DNA from: Cohaesibacter sp. ES.047
GTDB lineage: Bacteria; Pseudomonadota; Alphaproteobacteria; Rhizobiales; Cohaesibacteraceae
Assembly (NCBI RefSeq): GCF_900215505.1
Contig: NZ_LT907844.1
Span: 1,832,501 to 1,896,500, forward strand
Direction: 5' to 3'
DNA: 64,000 nt
In this document: positions 1,603-8,533 of the stretch, piece after piece
Layout of the letters: each line of letters opens with the position of its first letter
How positions within the stretch are numbered: the first letter of the stretch is position 1
Program-made: the position numbers and the translations under genes
The notes under the pieces: generated by a model
Told to the model about the DNA's origin: nothing
The model's input: only the letters and a program-made list of their open reading frames with translations
The model's database searches: none

Positions 1603-2121
1603 TTAATAAGGCAGTTTTAAAACGAAATGAAAGAGATTCCAAAACTTGCTTTCACCCGAATAGACCCGTCCTTCGAACCATTCAGCCGCTTTATAAACGG
1701 CATTGAAGCCCGCTCGTTCGTAGATGATATTGGCTTCATCAAAGCTGATGCATTTTGCTATTGGACTCGCTGCCCAATCATCATCTAGGCCCAATAGGGT
1801 CACGTAAATGGTGCCGTTATCATTCAATAGGGATTTTAAGCGACCGAGGAACTCCTCGAGGGAATAGGTGATATGGTGAGAAACGAGAGATGCAACGATA
1901 AGATCGTAGCGCTGAGTTGTGGTAAAATCTTCAAATCTGCTTTGAATGAAATTGATCTCTTTGTCTGAAGCCAATTCTTCAAAAACCACAGGATCAATTG
2001 CATCAACGTTATGGCCCTTATTTGCGAAATACCTCGCCATCCCTCCCTCTCTTGCACCAACATCTAGCACTCTACCTGGTTTAGGTAATTCAATTCTCTC
2101 TATAATATCGGCGCGTATCAT
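1603..2121 (-). CDS. Class I SAM-dependent methyltransferase (prophage cargo)
   Basis: This 172-residue protein carries a Rossmann SAM-binding motif I, VLDVGAREGGMARYFANKG, at residues 18-36. An acidic motif II follows (VDAIDP), then a motif-IV-like region YDLIVASLVSHHI and a post-motif NDNGTIYVTLLG. The arrangement resembles small TehB/UbiE-like methyltransferases, and the substrate cannot be read from the sequence. The gene runs against the phage late operon, is visibly more AT-rich than the flanking structural genes, and sits between gpG and the reverse-transcriptase operon. This marks it as a moron or defence-island gene. Whether it works with the RT pair is unknown. Confidence 0.75.
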   Translation of the reverse strand: MIRADIIERIELPKPGRVLDVGAREGGMARYFANKGHNVDAIDPVVFEELASDKEINFIQSRFEDFTTTQRYDLIVASLVSHHITYSLEEFLGRLKSLLNDNGTIYVTLLGLDDDWAASPIAKCISFDEANIIYERAGFNAVYKAAEWFEGRVYSGESKFWNLFHFVLKLPY

Positions 2122-2320
2122 ACAGGCATCTTTCTCGACTGTTTGTTATTTGCAAGGCTGTCTCTTGCGGTGTCTTGAAGAAACCATAGCCTGTACGAGG
2201 AAAACGTCTCGAGCCAGCGTTTAGTTTTGCTAACTCACAGCTGCAAACGGTCCTGCCACTTTTAGTGTCCAATTTGGGCTCGAACCGGACTGGTGCAGTG
2301 CATCATCATGCGACAACGCT

Positions 2321-2352
2321 CATCCAGGTTGGTGATTTGCAATCGCGGCCCC
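2321..2352 (+). repeat. Intergenic repeat fragment, copy 1 (CATCnAGG…TCGCGGCCC)
   Basis: The stretch CATCCAGGTTGGTGATTTGC followed by AATCGCGGCCCC resembles 3310-3340 downstream, which reads CATCTAGGCTTGCGTTTTGC then ATTCGCGGCCC. Together the two copies bracket the unrecognised gene at 2439-3221. Their function is unknown. Confidence 0.4.
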
Positions 2353-2438
2353 TTAAGAGACACTCAGCGATAAGCTGTCATACTGCGGCGCTCCCCTCCC
2401 ATCCGGTCATTTGCCGCAGATGTGCAATCTCAGGGGAG

Positions 2439-3221
2439 ATGCATATTCACGATGCGGACTTTATGGAACTACAGCGCGGTCTGTGGCAAGATCTTGCAAT
2501 GATAGAATTCCGCTCCCTTTCCGATGACCATCCCGACCTCGCGCATTCCCCGCTGCTGCACGGTGCGCTCCTTACACTGCAATATGCGCAGAAGCACGGA
2601 TCAATCGCTCTGACCAAATCTAAGGCCTTCAAGCGCATTTTCGTCCATTGGGCCGTCGAGAATTTCAATTGGCCAGGCAAAAGCGCAGAAGAGATGTTCC
2701 GCTATAACAAGGTAATCAATGAATATGAGTTTCCTCCGCTCGAGATTATCCATTTCCTGCTCATCTCCCTGCGCCTGGGACGTCACTTCAAGGGTGAGTT
2801 TCGACTGACCAAGCGGGGCATAAAACTGGCGCAATCTCCTGGCCATCTGTTTGCCGAGTTGATCCCATACTTTGTGCTTCAGATGGATCACTCTTCTTAT
2901 GCACGCTTTGAAAACCGTCCCTTCGGGAAGTGGGAGGTCTGGATGAATGTGATTAACGTCGAAGCCGATCAAGGCACGACCGAGGCTGCCTTGTTCGAAA
3001 TCTTCTACGGTGAGCCGCAAGATTGGCACACTGCAGGGTGGAGAGAGATGGCTGTGTTTTCAGCCTGTGTACTTCGTCCGCTCGAATGGGCTGGGTTGCT
3101 GGTGGAGACACGTGAAGAAGGAGGCAGCAAGCCTGTATGTCATGTGTTCAAAACCCCACTCTGGCGCAGCGCGATCAACCTTGATACCGACAACATGCTG
3201 CGGCCAATATCCGTTCAATGA
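2439..3221 (+). CDS. Uncharacterised cargo protein
   Basis: I do not recognise this protein. The frame is open from 2265, but the upstream stretch overlaps repeat sequence. I therefore prefer the ATG at 2439, which gives 260 residues. A further in-frame ATG at 2463 is possible. The protein looks soluble, with a central FPPLEIIHFLLISLRLGRHF helix followed by FRLTKRGIKLA, which resembles a winged-helix wing ('LT.RG..LA'), and a C-terminal AVFSACVLRPLEWAGLLVET that looks like a second winged-helix segment. No catalytic motif, signal peptide or membrane span is seen. It is the only cargo gene on the late-operon strand and is bracketed by related short repeats. Confidence 0.55.
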   Translation: MHIHDADFMELQRGLWQDLAMIEFRSLSDDHPDLAHSPLLHGALLTLQYAQKHGSIALTKSKAFKRIFVHWAVENFNWPGKSAEEMFRYNKVINEYEFPPLEIIHFLLISLRLGRHFKGEFRLTKRGIKLAQSPGHLFAELIPYFVLQMDHSSYARFENRPFGKWEVWMNVINVEADQGTTEAALFEIFYGEPQDWHTAGWREMAVFSACVLRPLEWAGLLVETREEGGSKPVCHVFKTPLWRSAINLDTDNMLRPISVQ

Positions 3222-3239
3222 GAGATGCTTTTTCGGCTA

Positions 3240-3343
3240 CCAAGATGTGGCGCTTTTAGCGTTTGCGGCCCCAAGCGGTCGAGTGCGATGCGTAATGATG
3301 AAAGCCGCTCATCTAGGCTTGCGTTTTGCATTCGCGGCCCAAA
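3240..3343 (+). repeat. Intergenic repeat fragments, copies 2 and 3 (TTTGCGGCCCC / ATTCGCGGCCC)
   Basis: Two near-repeats occur in tandem: GCGTTTGCGGCCCCAAGCGG around 3260-3279 and TTGCATTCGCGGCCCAAAGC around 3325-3344. The second matches the copy at 2321-2352 upstream of the neighbouring gene. A shorter relative (ATCGCGGCCCTTTG) lies at 25953-25967 near the other end of the prophage. These look like dispersed non-coding repeats rather than part of a gene. Confidence 0.4.
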
Positions 3344-3399
3344 GCTGCCTTTCGTGCACCTCGCAATGAACGTCCGGTTTGTCAGCCGAAGCGGAAATG

Positions 3400-3592
3400 C
3401 TAACTTAGATGGGTGGCAAGCGTTCGCTCTATTGCCACCACTTTGTGACACTTTCGGATCGAAAAATGGATAGTTGGGCGTGCCTGTATGTGTGTGGTCC
3501 GCAAAAGCGTAAACTTAGAAGGAACGCAGAGGCCTAGTAATGGGTCCCGTCGCGTCCAGCTCAGATATCTCAGGCAACCGCCCACAATTATC
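3400..3592 (-). ncRNA. Candidate non-coding RNA of the DRT3 system with ACACAC-type template
   Basis: This stretch lies directly downstream of the second RT gene on the same strand and holds no convincing reading frame. On the minus strand it reads GCGGACCACACACATACAGG at 3505-3486, so a CACACACA run sits at 3496-3489. About 50 nt further on is a perfect 8-bp stem, GGTGGCAA (3439-3432) with TTGCCACC (3419-3412); part of the loop can pair further. A short motif, CTAAGTT, occurs on both sides (near 3517 and 3408). As I recall the published DRT3 work, one RT copies an ACACAC segment of a cognate ncRNA into poly(GT). The match here is to that idea; the RNA boundaries are not determined. Confidence 0.5.
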
Positions 3593-5527
3593 TTAGACCG
3601 CCGAGTATACAGGCTGCAACTGCTTTCTTCTCAAAAAATGAGACGTTCTTCCGGCGTTCCAATCGACGAATGCAACGTGTTTTGCGAGCTTTTCGATATC
3701 ATCGTCCGATAGGTCATCGACGCCACAAACTTCCTTTATTAAGGCCTTTCTTTTGCTAACCTTAATATAGGGACATCCTATAATATCGCTAAACATCAGG
3801 TATACCTCTGAACTAGTCCTGAGTTCTGTTTTGTTTCTACGAACCTGTTTGAGAGCCAACTTGGAGATGGTTTCGAGCGCCCTATCAACATCAACAGACG
3901 GCGATGCTTGCGCCAACAGAAAAATCATCGCAATAAATGAAAAGTACCCAATGCTTTTCCTTTTAAGCAACATGGTGCACAGCTCAATAACAGGGGGCTG
4001 GGATAAAAACAGGTCACTATTAACCGAAGCACCAAGCACAAGCAGATTACAAATTTCTAAGGAAATGTCTTTCTCAATCTTTTCCGGTTTATAGGTAGCA
4101 ACTAGCTCCGTTATCTCATAAACGAGATAGCTATCTAGCGCTTCAGCTTCTGACAATCCGATTGCAGTCTTGAAATTCTTTAAGCTCTCGAGAATTTGGA
4201 AAGATTTATAGATCGGAGCAACGCGAAAATCTGACGCCAAAGAATAGAATAGAATTCGCAGAATGGATCTAACTCTATTAATGGCGTCAATTTTTGTTTT
4301 AGTCGTAAAACTTTCTGCCGACTTTAATACAGCTTTAACGGCCTTCCCTATCTGAAAATAGATCGAGCCGGTTACTTCGTTGAAAGTTGCATCTGTATCA
4401 CGAACAACTAGCCTTAACTCTTCAAGTAGGCTTCGCATGTTGCGGCGTATCTCTGTTTGTTCGTCCTCGTCATCAACTAACGGCCTTTTTGCTTCGGCTA
4501 GCAACCTAGTGGTAATATCTCCGATGCCTTGTTTTGCTCGGGTGATGTTGGTCACAAAAGGGCGGCGCAAATTTTCAAGTTTTCCCTCGTTCGGATACAG
4601 CTTATACTCTTCTAAACAAGTTTCTACAGCTCGATTCAGTTCGTCGAGTACAGCTTCATTCCGTGTAAAGAGGAAAAAGTCATCGACATATCTACGGAAA
4701 GTGTAATCACGCCCCTCGCGAAGGTGTTTATCCATTTTTAAGATTATATTTCTATCAATCTTCTGAAAGATTATCTCCGCAAAGACTCGTGATATCTCGG
4801 GTCCAACAACAATTCCATTTGTTTCATTGTAATTGGACCGTTGCATCAGTGCATCGAACCGGCCCTCGAAGGTATACTTGTTTGCTTGGGCTTTAGAATA
4901 AGGTTTATCCTTCACAGCCCATGTCACTGAATGGGTATAGATGTTAAAAAAGCACTTAGTTACATCAAGCTTTCTGAGATACTGAAATCGGCTCTCTAGC
5001 CTTAGAAGTTCGTTAGAGCCATAAAACTTGTCGAGCAAATTGTATTTTTTGACTGAAAAAAAGGATGGAGCAAAATTAATATCTAAGCGTCCATCTTCCG
5101 GCGCTACATGTGCTAGTCCAAGCTTCTTCGCATTCCCTGCTTTCTTCAATTCTTCCTTCGAAACTTCCGGCAAAACTCTGTACGGAGCTCGAAGCGAGTA
5201 TCTACTTTCACTGCATTCCGAAATGATTGTATTCGAATATCCTACTAAAAAAGTTGCCATTCTGATCTGGTGAAGTGGATGAACAATACTGAGTGTATTG
5301 AAGCCTCTGGCTCCTTTGCGAATCTGGTAGCTGAAAGGAATTGTGTAAGTCTCTGGCCTCAAAGGCCTCCTGTAGTCCCCATTTAAAAACTCTTGTGCTT
5401 TAACAGAAAGCCGAGACTTTCTTAGCTCGGATACGAAGAGAAATTCGTTGGAAAAGGTGACAGGAACCTCGTATGGCAGTGTTTCAGTCAAGAGAGGTCG
5501 CAATTTCCGTGCGTGTGGTTCAAGCAT
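3593..5527 (-). CDS. drt3b: Reverse transcriptase Drt3b-like (UG8 class) of a DRT type 3 defence system
   Basis: This 644-residue protein contains RT motif A at about 182-200 (FQYLRKLDVTKCFFNIYTHS, catalytic D188). Motif B is at about 237-251 (NGIVVGPEISRVFAE) and motif C at 278-287 (RRYVDDFFLF, catalytic YVDD). The GIVVGPEISR form of motif B is typical of the Abi/UG group rather than retrons or group II introns. A long all-helical C-terminal half (about 340-640) follows the palm, as in AbiK/Abi-P2 and UG8 proteins. The start overlaps the upstream RT stop by eight bases, so translation is coupled. Published DRT3 work (recalled, not checked) gives this subunit template-independent synthesis of the strand complementary to the Drt3a product. 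Confidence 0.8.
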   Translation of the reverse strand: MLEPHARKLRPLLTETLPYEVPVTFSNEFLFVSELRKSRLSVKAQEFLNGDYRRPLRPETYTIPFSYQIRKGARGFNTLSIVHPLHQIRMATFLVGYSNTIISECSESRYSLRAPYRVLPEVSKEELKKAGNAKKLGLAHVAPEDGRLDINFAPSFFSVKKYNLLDKFYGSNELLRLESRFQYLRKLDVTKCFFNIYTHSVTWAVKDKPYSKAQANKYTFEGRFDALMQRSNYNETNGIVVGPEISRVFAEIIFQKIDRNIILKMDKHLREGRDYTFRRYVDDFFLFTRNEAVLDELNRAVETCLEEYKLYPNEGKLENLRRPFVTNITRAKQGIGDITTRLLAEAKRPLVDDEDEQTEIRRNMRSLLEELRLVVRDTDATFNEVTGSIYFQIGKAVKAVLKSAESFTTKTKIDAINRVRSILRILFYSLASDFRVAPIYKSFQILESLKNFKTAIGLSEAEALDSYLVYEITELVATYKPEKIEKDISLEICNLLVLGASVNSDLFLSQPPVIELCTMLLKRKSIGYFSFIAMIFLLAQASPSVDVDRALETISKLALKQVRRNKTELRTSSEVYLMFSDIIGCPYIKVSKRKALIKEVCGVDDLSDDDIEKLAKHVAFVDWNAGRTSHFLRRKQLQPVYSAV

Positions 5528-6809
5528 TCAACCAAGCCTTTCTTATTTCGGAAACAGTGGCACGCTTGAAGCGCACGGTCATCTTGTTTGTGAACCCCTT
5601 GTAAAAAGAGAGGTTCTTTAACTCTGCCAACTGCTCTGGCGTGAACGAAGCTTGAATTTCCGTTTTGAACTGGCTGTTACCTCCCCATAAAAGGGATGAT
5701 AAAAACCCATCTAACTCTTTCAGTTCGATTGGAGCAACTGAGACATTCTCAGGACCTTGCCGTCTGTATTGATACAAGCCGCATTTCCGATAATTGAAGT
5801 ATATTCCGGTCCTGATTCTGGCTTTTTTCGATCCGTGAGTATGACCCGTCTTTCTAATTTCAAAATTGCTGGTGAGAAACTTCACTCGGTTTAGCAGCAA
5901 AGCAGCGTTCTTGTCTTTTTGGAATGCTTTCAAGCTAAGTATGATACGTGTCTTTCTGACTTTGATTTTGTCTTTAGATATCTTGACCAAGACTTGTCGG
6001 CTCATTCGAGCTCGAATTCCATTTGAGCATTCGAACGAATAACCGAGATAGGTGAACGAGCTGGCTGGCTTTTTGCAAGGATTTTTGTCTGAATCTGGTA
6101 TCGACTCTAGAAAAGCATCTTCCGTCTTTGAGTTCAGTTCGAAATTTGGGCTTAGGATCTCCTTGATTTTGGCAAGTGCTGGATCGACCTTTTGCGTTGA
6201 AAACAACAAAATGTCATCTGCGAAGCGAAAATATCGGTAAACCCCTTCGATCTCCATGACTTCTCGATCAAATTTACGCAGCGCAAGTTCGGCGAAGGTG
6301 GTGCTGAGGCCAAGTCCACGAGGGATGCCAGATTGTGTTCCCCCAAGTAGGCCCGACGTTTCTAGAACTCTCAGGACTGTCTTTACGTGTGAGTGTGTCT
6401 TTGTTGAACTAAGAATCTCTGCCAGTATTGCCTTTGCATCTACATTTTCGAAGAAAGATTTTATATCACACCGCAATACATAAAATGGTGAAGCGTCGAA
6501 CAGAGTTTCTAAGACGCCGTTAACCACAGTGTCGCGGCTAGCCGAGCTAACACCATATTGTTTGTTCAAAGACCTCGCGGTCGCTCGTAGAGCGAGCGCA
6601 CCGTGAAAGTTGTTAATCAAAAGCAGCTTTCGCCCTTTGGAAATCGGGACCGAGCGGTGATGAAAAGTGATTGTGCCATCATCCACCTGTTCGCGTATCT
6701 GAGAAAGAAGAGCCTCGCAATCCAATGCCAAATCGACACCAAACTTCCTGGAGTCGCCGACCCGAATACAGCTTCTAAGATATTTTTCAGAAAATGGACT
6801 AATCTGCAT
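5520..6809 (-). CDS. drt3a: Reverse transcriptase Drt3a-like (UG3 class) of a DRT type 3 defence system
   Basis: This 429-residue RT shows motif A at 110-124 (YVLRCDIKSFFENVD, D115), motif B at 160-174 (SGIPRGLGLSTTFAE), motif C at 192-204 (RYFRFADDILLFS, FADD) and an YLGYSF grip motif at about 254-259. A basic C-terminal part follows (residues 265-429, rich in K/R), suited to RNA binding. There is no group II intron maturase or retron msr/msd context. The gene is first in a two-gene operon with the 644-residue RT; this pairing of a ~430 and a ~640 residue RT is the hallmark of DRT type 3. The start at 6809 has a weak AAGAAG upstream. The AT-rich codon use differs from the flanking phage genes. 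Confidence 0.82.
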   Translation of the reverse strand: MQISPFSEKYLRSCIRVGDSRKFGVDLALDCEALLSQIREQVDDGTITFHHRSVPISKGRKLLLINNFHGALALRATARSLNKQYGVSSASRDTVVNGVLETLFDASPFYVLRCDIKSFFENVDAKAILAEILSSTKTHSHVKTVLRVLETSGLLGGTQSGIPRGLGLSTTFAELALRKFDREVMEIEGVYRYFRFADDILLFSTQKVDPALAKIKEILSPNFELNSKTEDAFLESIPDSDKNPCKKPASSFTYLGYSFECSNGIRARMSRQVLVKISKDKIKVRKTRIILSLKAFQKDKNAALLLNRVKFLTSNFEIRKTGHTHGSKKARIRTGIYFNYRKCGLYQYRRQGPENVSVAPIELKELDGFLSSLLWGGNSQFKTEIQASFTPEQLAELKNLSFYKGFTNKMTVRFKRATVSEIRKAWLNA

Positions 6810-7366
6810 TATTGTTTACTTCTTATCAAAAGGTTGTAAATATTTCCGATACAATTTGATCCGCATGCAAGTTAGTTGAGCGATGTAAGCATAACAATAC
6901 CAGAAATTGCACAAAAACAGCAATGTGACTAAAACTGTCTTCGGTGCAGATAGCAGCAAAAGACTGCCTCCCGCCCGACCATGACGCAGCTATCAAAGCG
7001 AGCTTAAAGTTCCCGAGAATGTCCGCTTCTGCTGGCTACCATCAGGATTTTGCATCTGCGGGAAATGTCCGCAATCCGCCCACAGGCGTCGATCATCAAG
7101 CTTTCCGACAATTTGTCTCTGTCGCGTTTTGTACCCCCTCCCAGCCCCCACCATACCCAAAATTTCCGCGAGCCGCGTTAAAGGCGCGTTAGAAAGCCAT
7201 TGAGGGCCTATTGTTGCGGTTGGGTTGCCTCTCATCTGCCGTTGGTGATAGAAGGGCGATAGCTTCCCCCCAAAAATTGACTTCATATGCCGCCCGGAAC
7301 AGTTCCGGCGAGCGCCATCATTTTACCTGCCATGTTGCCATCAACTTGATCCCAAGGAGATGCGGC
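6810..7366. other. Intergenic region between the RT operon and the phage protease gene
   Basis: I find no convincing gene here. It must hold divergent control signals: the promoter of the RT operon (minus strand) and a promoter or read-through path for the capsid and tail genes, which are cut off from the upstream head genes by the cargo. On the minus strand a TTGTAT element and a TTTGAT element lie about 17-18 bp apart just upstream of the RT start, a possible but unproven promoter. A doubled phrase, AATGTCCGC, occurs at 7018-7026 and 7064-7072. The region nearest 7366 ends in a good AAGGAG site for the protease start. Confidence 0.5.
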
Positions 7367-8533
7367 GTGGCCAAGGTTGATGACAAAGACAAAACGAAGC
7401 GCATTGAGGTGTTCCGTCCGGGCACGTTTACGGCGATGGGCGGCATGGCGTTCAGTGCGTCTGCTGAAGACCTGGCTGGTCTGGCTCAGCGTTATGATCC
7501 TGACGCATATCCTGTGCCTGTTGTTGTTGGCCATCCCAAGACTGACGATCCCGCCTATGGCTGGGTGAAGGCCTTTTCCTATGATGATGAGGCGGATCGC
7601 CTCTTTGCCGAGATCGGTGATCTGGAGCCACAGTTCGCCGATGCGGTTGCGCAGCATCGCTACAAGCGCGTCTCCATGGCTTTTTATAAACCAGGTGCAA
7701 GCTCCAATCCTGCGGGCGATGCTCTCTATCCCAAACATGTCGGGTTTCTTGGGGCTGTGGCTCCTGCTGTGCCCGGTTTGAAGCCGGTGGAATTTGCCGG
7801 TGAGGCGGATGATGTCATCGCCGTCGAGTTTGCCGATGCCGCCTTCAAGGATGTTGCCAGCATCTTTCGCCGTTTCCGTGACTGGCTGATCGCCAACGAA
7901 GGTCTGGAGACCGCAGACAATGTGCTGCCCGACTATCAGATCCGCTGGATCGACGATGCTGGCGACCTGCCTCCCGACATTCCTTCCCCCGAATTTTCTG
8001 AAGACGAGGAACCCACCATGGCCCTGAAGCCCGCCAAATCCAAACCCGCCCAGACCGCCACTACACAACCAAGCGAAGCTGAGCTTACCTTTGCTGAGCG
8101 AGAGGCCGAGCTGAACGCCCGTCAGGCAGAGCTGGACGAGCGGGAAGCCGAACAGCGCCATGAGACCCATGTCGCCTTTGCCGAAGGCCTTGTCGATGAT
8201 GGCCGCCTGCCATCGGGCAACCGGGCCAAGGTGGTGGCCCTGCTCGATGGCGCTTCTGAGCTTGATGCGGACGAGATCGAATTTGCCGATGGCAACGAGA
8301 CCAAGAAAGCCGATCTGGTCGATCTCTTGAAAGACGTGCTCAAGACCCAGCCTCCCATCATCCAGTTTGGCGAGATGGATCTGGGTGATGCACCGGACGG
8401 CAAGGAGCCTGATCCCGAGGTCATCGCCAATGAGGCGGTTGCCTTCCAGGTCTCCCAGCGTGAAGCGGGGATTGAGGTCTCCACGTCCGACGCCATTTCC
8501 CACATCCGCCAGAAGCGTGGCCTGACAGACTAA
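7367..8533 (+). CDS. Mu-like phage protease/scaffold protein (gpI-like)
   Basis: This 388-residue protein is the prohead protease of the Mu gpI type, with the scaffold fused at its C-terminus. The N-terminal half (to about 215) carries the protease part, with VVVGHPKTDDPAYGWV near residues 45-60 and YKRVSMAFY near 95-103. The C-terminal half is a charged coiled coil (AEREAELNARQAELDEREAE) ending in the scaffold tail. I choose the GTG at 7367 because AAGGAG lies seven bases upstream; the open frame runs back to 7211 without a good site. The protease trims the scaffold during head maturation. The downstream order (decoration, capsid) matches Mu-like phages. Confidence 0.85.
   Translation: MAKVDDKDKTKRIEVFRPGTFTAMGGMAFSASAEDLAGLAQRYDPDAYPVPVVVGHPKTDDPAYGWVKAFSYDDEADRLFAEIGDLEPQFADAVAQHRYKRVSMAFYKPGASSNPAGDALYPKHVGFLGAVAPAVPGLKPVEFAGEADDVIAVEFADAAFKDVASIFRRFRDWLIANEGLETADNVLPDYQIRWIDDAGDLPPDIPSPEFSEDEEPTMALKPAKSKPAQTATTQPSEAELTFAEREAELNARQAELDEREAEQRHETHVAFAEGLVDDGRLPSGNRAKVVALLDGASELDADEIEFADGNETKKADLVDLLKDVLKTQPPIIQFGEMDLGDAPDGKEPDPEVIANEAVAFQVSQREAGIEVSTSDAISHIRQKRGLTD
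8018..8533 (+). CDS. Internal in-frame start: scaffold protein (gpZ-like)
   Basis: Inside the protease gene an ATG at 8018 is preceded by GAGGAACCCACC, a good ribosome site at the right spacing. Starting there gives a 171-residue product with only the coiled-coil scaffold region (MALKPAKSKPAQ onward). In Mu the scaffold Z is made from the same frame as the 3' part of gene I, and this arrangement copies it. Internal initiation is inferred from the site, not proven. Confidence 0.6.
   Translation: MALKPAKSKPAQTATTQPSEAELTFAEREAELNARQAELDEREAEQRHETHVAFAEGLVDDGRLPSGNRAKVVALLDGASELDADEIEFADGNETKKADLVDLLKDVLKTQPPIIQFGEMDLGDAPDGKEPDPEVIANEAVAFQVSQREAGIEVSTSDAISHIRQKRGLTD

Follow-up and report, generated by a model that had tools for sequence, protein, structure and literature searches.

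The minus strand at positions 3592-3469 of the window (the whole 64,000-nt stretch of Cohaesibacter sp. ES.047 DNA that was analysed) is very likely the gene of a DRT3 ncRNA, belonging to an antiphage system that a prophage carries as cargo; the RNA is predicted to form a closing helix (P1) round an AC template and would act through the poly(dTdG)/poly(dCdA) mechanism. Within the window, this reading is based on gene identity, position, conservation of the template, a predicted helix and compensatory changes; transcription, RNA binding, DNA products and defence are read across from the published E. coli systems. By the same analogy, repetitive DNA directed against phages is very probably made by copying the ACACAC run.

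The DRT3 locus and its prophage setting

The two reverse transcriptase (RT) genes are encoded on a single strand, drt3a preceding drt3b with an overlap of 8 nt, and are surrounded by prophage genes:

5520-6809, minus strand: drt3a (UG3 reverse transcriptase), 429 aa, FADD motif
3593-5527, minus strand: drt3b (UG8 reverse transcriptase), 644 aa, YVDD motif
2121-1603: methyltransferase, beside the drt3 genes and within prophage genes
about 2265-3221: ORF of unknown kind, beside the drt3 genes and within prophage genes
129-848: minor head protein, on one flank of the DRT3 block
955-1458: neck/tail-completion protein, on the same flank as the minor head protein
7367-8533: head maturation protease, on the opposite flank, with scaffold and major head protein on that side too

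Both proteins score above the curated equivalog thresholds of NCBIfam (Drt3a, 355.9 bits against NF041747, cut-off 200; Drt3b, 572.5 bits against NF041748, cut-off 350) and are matched by the Drt3a and Drt3b entries of PADLOC (4.4e-97 and 2.5e-160, respectively). In addition, phmmer relates Drt3a to PDB 9z6y_A (2.5e-28), and Drt3b matches the solved DRT3 structures 26cz_A (1.8e-81) and 9z6y_H (6.6e-78). The DRT3 block looks like cargo inside a run of prophage head genes. For the ORF at 2265-3221, searches of Pfam, PHROGs, PADLOC and NCBIfam were all negative under the thresholds applied; its first 30 codons are overlapped by a dispersed repeat (about 2242-2354) that has five more partial copies in the genome (72-85% identical), and its true start lies probably further inside the frame.

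Drt3b is uncommon round this genome, being present in 5 of 385 genomes of its class and in 3 of 297 genomes of its order (both counts include the genome itself). A second, different DRT3 (L127) occurs in a further genome of this genus; downstream of its drt3b stop, AC runs are located at +94 and +142.

Sample of DRT3 loci

DRT3 loci were drawn from plasmid records, genomes (the best 80 of 462 relatives among the named ones) and viral contigs; because these 80 were chosen by their rank against the window, its kin are over-represented in the sample. The nearest intact relative among them is that of Pseudooceanicola pacificus (L014), whose Drt3b and Drt3a are 53% and 52% identical to those of the window. 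A copy of the window (L001), loci with RTs that are not clearly Drt3b (L118-L125) and loci in which the Drt3b C-terminus falls outside the frame or the contig (L015, L052, L070, L076) were left out of the counts, giving 113 loci. The Drt3b protein alignment omits L117 too (112 loci) and represents split Drt3b genes by their best-scoring fragment only. Also outside the counts are L127, L128, L134 and L135, later additions that have AC runs downstream of drt3b in all four cases, L136, which has no long Drt3b frame and one ACACAC that was not placed relative to Drt3b, and L129-L133, which repeat loci already in the set.

Viral contigs scanned for the 19-base core common to the window and L014 did not contain it, and 394 genomes of the L014 family yielded four matches, L014 itself and three at 28-38% identity. 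A megablast search of E. coli genomes with L095 gave no place covering 80% of the query. L015, on a plasmid of Yoonia maritima, is apparently a decayed relative of the window's system: its Drt3b match stops at residue 491, the last 68 residues of Drt3a alone match, and the RT strand there lacks ACACAC. In L009 (E. coli plasmid CP083496.1) Drt3b is found in two frames, annotated as two hypothetical proteins.

The AC run and its conserved position

The candidate template is a short run behind drt3b:

3489-3496, minus strand: template CACACACA (contains ACACAC), at a conserved position, with the same block in L014

The original prediction, made from the letters of the window, had placed CACACACA at 3496-3489 on the RT strand and regarded it as the template element of a DRT3 ncRNA. 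The run was confirmed there, on the minus strand, beginning at +97 after the drt3b stop, and its assignment as template holds up well, being on the right strand, downstream of drt3b and conserved family-wide. When the flanks of relatives were examined for such a run, 108 of 113 loci, counting the window, had ACACAC in the 400 nt behind drt3b; upstream of drt3a, 6 of the 103 loci with at least 300 nt there had it within 400 nt. With one representative locus per 85% Drt3b cluster the figures are 97/101 downstream (median place +128) and 3/93 upstream, and 50 dinucleotide shuffles of the representatives' downstream flanks contain ACACAC in a mean of 7.4 and a maximum of 14 of 101. CACACACA is not rare by itself (two occurrences in 64 kb against 1.72 expected); it is the position of the AC run behind drt3b, not its mere presence, that exceeds chance. 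The lack of an AC run upstream of the operon (6810-7366), also part of the original prediction, extends to both strands of 6810-7400, and the single other ACACAC on the RT strand of 1603-6809 is inside drt3a, at 6393.

L034, L046, L047, L053 and L087 lack ACACAC and have ACAC or CACAC at the apparent template place, which was set by eye in these five loci; such runs are possible minimal templates.

Predicted fold of the ncRNA

Folding of the flank gives the following elements, together with a hairpin located further downstream:

3462-3592, minus strand: predicted DRT3 ncRNA, core 3592-3469 (from position, conserved template, closing helix and U-tract)
3579-3584, minus strand: P1 closing helix, outer 5' arm UGGGCG (predicted)
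3571-3576, minus strand: P1 closing helix, inner 5' arm UGCCUG (predicted)
3481-3486, minus strand: P1 inner 3' arm CAGGCA, two bases 3' of the template
3475-3480, minus strand: P1 outer 3' arm CGCCCA, with two compensatory pairs relative to L014
3500-3509, minus strand: small hairpin CGC-UUUU-GCG, directly 5' of the template (single-sequence fold)
3462-3466, minus strand: UUUUU, shortly after the P1 3' arm, candidate 3' end
3412-3439, minus strand: 8-bp hairpin of the original prediction, outside the conserved core, no U-run behind it

P1 is a 12-bp helix (3584-3579 and 3576-3571 paired with 3486-3475) whose 5' end is the ninth base behind the drt3b stop and which closes two bases past the template. 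By prediction, P1 closes round the template, which is left unpaired in the loop of a structured RNA. The core starts right behind the drt3b stop (3592) and closes at 3475-3469; from the position of P1 and the U-tract, its limits were set at 3592-3469 and the RNA may have its 3' end close to 3462. Of 87 loci, 49 have a U-rich hexamer behind P1 and 20 have one at a control place; the ncRNA may end at the U-tract 3466-3462. The transcript span originally expected (3400-3590) takes in most of this core, whereas the narrower interval proposed for the RNA, 3412-3505, is not supported, since the core is placed at 3592-3469 and the conserved helix bases 3584-3571 fall outside that span.

In the published DRT3 ncRNA, a 'stem-loop 4' adjoins the ACACAC loop (PMC13174585), and the modelled hairpin at 3509-3500 perhaps occupies its place. 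Hairpins at this place show compensatory pairs in four relatives. The window's hairpin does not stand out statistically among the 30-mers of the flank. For the 30 bases directly 5' of the template, folding energy gives a weak signal (mean -5.03 versus -3.72; median percentile 0.36, window 0.53). A scan of Rfam returned no match at the ncRNA place up to an E value of 10, and on its strand a pattern scan turned up neither promoter-like nor terminator-like sites at the ncRNA.

Conservation of the predicted closing helix

The helix was evaluated in 109 loci (from 114, after dropping L001, three near-identical flanks and one short flank) by means of the stacking score of the best helix that joins the beginning of the flank to the bases past the template. 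The mean score is -24.9 with native arms, -13.7 once arms are exchanged among loci and -13.1 in a control region. In 77 of the 109 loci the native helix ranks within the top 5% both ways; the 32 that miss this mark on at least one side include most of those with the second RNA architecture described below. The window narrowly misses it on one side: its own pairing is equalled by none of the 108 foreign 5' arms and by six of the 108 foreign 3' arms. An RNAduplex version of this test with long arms was less discriminating (native -26.2 and swapped -18.3; control native -19.0 and swapped -17.7; 59 and 11 of 108 rivals for the window), and the stricter helix score was used instead because long bulges let swapped arms pair too well.

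Between the window and L014, 10 of the 12 P1 pairs are unchanged, two are changed on both sides and none is broken; when the P1 partners are shifted by 1-3 columns, no more than 46% of cells remain paired. Two compensatory pairs are few, and two-sequence column shuffles reach the same count in 116 of 500 cases. Alignment by MAFFT, with ten and with eleven sequences, left the helices out of register. A covariance model built from four relatives, narrow in scope, matches the window at 3460-3587, coinciding with the predicted RNA at a non-significant level (4.6 bits, E 1.2, rank 7 of 35). That four-sequence model matched 6 of 56 sources, four of which are its own seeds, and missed the characterised loci L094 and L098. 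The swap test across loci suggests that the shape of the RNA, a closing helix round an AC template, is kept and its sequence is not.

A second ncRNA architecture

In the first 220 nt past drt3b, 13 loci (L005, L008-L012, L064, L085, L092, L106, L111, L112 and L114) show a different arrangement, with the template 25-75 nt after the drt3b stop, a weak closing stem and a structured 3' domain. These loci, chosen on such RNA traits, form exactly one Drt3b clade (support 1.0). L043, L044, L078 and L089 are short-spaced too, but have a strong closing stem and are outside this clade. In the nine loci examined for it, the bases that follow the first arm are able to pair with a 3' hairpin loop, with changing sequence, as a possible pseudoknot; the pairing score is modestly above that of swapped partners (16.4 versus 13.3).

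Alternative readings of the downstream flank

The strong 8-bp stem at 3439-3412 was correctly described in the original prediction: it is an inverted repeat, GGTGGCAA/TTGCCACC (3412-3419/3432-3439), 100% identical and with a 12-nt loop, in a window that contains 35 perfect 8-bp hairpins with loops of 3-20 nt (12-25 in eight Markov shuffles). What is not supported is its inclusion in the template RNA. The idea that the functional RNA is 3505-3412, an AC run followed by this hairpin, draws on the perfection of the stem, 49 nt downstream of the template, and on the somewhat higher frequency of perfect 8-bp hairpins 15-110 nt past the template (16 of 113 loci and, at a control place, 1 of 25). It is nevertheless very unlikely, as the hairpin lies beyond the core, L014 has none, the hairpins of the 16 loci vary in both sequence and location (several belong to the 3' domain of the second architecture), and the conserved helix uses bases outside that span. 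The hairpin could instead be a transcription end signal or a stabiliser of the operon 3' end, separate from the ncRNA core, a role that fits its start about 30 nt beyond the core and the G+C-rich hairpin with a T-run found directly behind the core in L094; this is a minor but real possibility, held back by the lack of a U-run behind 3439-3412, by a terminator scan that did not list this hairpin and by the UUUUU at 3466-3462, which already follows P1.

Two further readings dispense with an ncRNA at this place. That the AC run is a chance occurrence in an intergenic stretch, and the true ncRNA elsewhere or lost, has in its favour an expected frequency of 1.7 per window; yet position, neighbours and helix are all conserved, 6810-7400 has no ACACAC, and the other run on the RT strand is within drt3a, making this account highly improbable. 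Least credible is a small protein. An open frame does exist, since an ORF of 61 aa (3400-3585, minus strand) covers the stretch, and the original statement that there is no reading frame is to that extent inexact; in substance it stands, as the same frame in L014 stops after 10 codons of the compared stretch and the paired bases are kept. The ncRNA reading, with P1 round the AC template, is the one retained here, and the original prediction is a correct pointer to the DRT3 template RNA with the wrong 3' half.

The Drt3b active site and a clade lacking R71

According to the alignment, Drt3b of the window keeps the primer tyrosine (Y641), the base-selecting residues E20 and R247 and the catalytic aspartates. 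It departs from the E. coli protein at the R71 place:

5297-5308, minus strand: Drt3b residues R74-G-F-N77, with N77 aligned to R71 of the published E. coli Drt3b

In the published structure, R71 stacks on the incoming dA as a contributing residue (PMC13174585), and its change to Ala leaves no detectable product in cells (PMC13174585, section 7). The available text of that paper reports conservation among homologues for E22, R241 and the C-terminal Tyr, and none for R71 (PMC13174585). Among the 112 aligned loci, this place is occupied by R in 91, by N, T or L in 19 (N77 in the window) and by a gap in two. The 19 loci without R71 are exactly one Drt3b clade (support 1.0), and an Arg is found 2-3 residues upstream of the R71 place in 15 of them, versus 1 of the 91 others. 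We take the named members of this clade to be alpha- and betaproteobacteria, together with one bin titled only Pseudomonadota. A change from Tyr to another residue was considered as coupled to the loss of R71 and rejected, because the characterised L094 has Phe there together with R71.

ACACAC is present downstream of drt3b in all 19 loci of the clade, and its retention leads one to expect the AC alternation of the partner strand with a rearranged pocket. It may tentatively be proposed, at somewhat less than even odds, that these proteins make protein-templated poly(AC) with a rebuilt base pocket, in which an Arg usually occupies the same loop 2-3 residues further upstream. If so, the clade would constitute a natural test of which protein residues act as template, offering natural variants of the Drt3b residues that stand in for it.

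Proposed mechanism and comparison with known DRT3 systems

DRT3 and its ncRNA were first reported in 2020, according to PMC13314766. In E. coli, the ncRNA is encoded downstream of drt3b and has ACACAC in a loop (PMC13174585). Drt3a produces poly(dTdG) by using the AC run as template and resetting on it (PMC13174585), and the ACACAC template for poly(GT) named in the original prediction agrees with this published template. Drt3b makes poly(dCdA) by adding dC and dA in turn from its own Tyr (primer Y666, base selectors E22 and R241), and the two strands pair; the repeat dsDNA builds up to harmful levels once a phage protein inhibits RecBCD (PMC13174585).

Transferred to the window, the ncRNA would fold through the 12-bp P1, its 5' end pairing with the bases just past the template, and CACACACA would remain unpaired within the closed loop, 3' of an internal stem domain. 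By analogy, Drt3a would bind this RNA and convert the AC run into poly(dTdG), Drt3b would synthesize the complementary poly(dCdA) with its own active-site residues as guide, and both products would anneal to toxic repeat dsDNA.

The window resembles the E. coli system of Wang et al. (2026; PMC13174585) in the order Drt3a-Drt3b-ncRNA, the downstream ncRNA and the ACACAC loop. E22, R241 and Y666 of that Drt3b are all kept (E20, R247 and Y641 in the window), although the proteins are about 41% identical over 335 aa and R71 is replaced by N77. In the E. coli system of Deng et al. (2026; PDB 9z6y/9z6z), the ncRNA is downstream of the RT genes too, and Glu26 and Arg253 correspond to E20 and R247 (PMC13314766, PMC13213688); identity of Drt3b is about 40% over 326 aa, and the R71 equivalent is replaced. 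PDB 26cz is taken as the protein of Wang et al. because the residue numbers fit, and 9z6y is taken to be that of Deng et al., named Drt3b there. Both are represented in the sample: L094 Drt3b is 100% identical to 26cz over 327 aa, with its AC run beginning at +129 after the drt3b stop, and L098 Drt3b is 99.4% identical to 9z6y over 334 aa (AC run at +124). The present analysis is a base-level prediction of the template RNA for a DRT3 whose Drt3b is about 40% identical to these two studied proteins.

L014 shares with the window P1 and the block GGACCACACAC.TACAGGCACG.CC, the stretch GGACC-template-TACAGGCACG being kept, as well as N at the R71 place. Unlike the window, it has a longer internal domain (template at +113), D at the E22 place and no 8-bp hairpin downstream.

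To our knowledge, DRT9 and DRT10 have no partner like Drt3b. Their ncRNAs, like that of DRT3, serve the RNA-templated synthesis of tandem-repeat DNA by a Class 2 UG RT, with RT families and templates other than those of DRT3, as far as described in PMC13174585. The DRT3 of the window is a divergent member of a known defence system, not a new kind.
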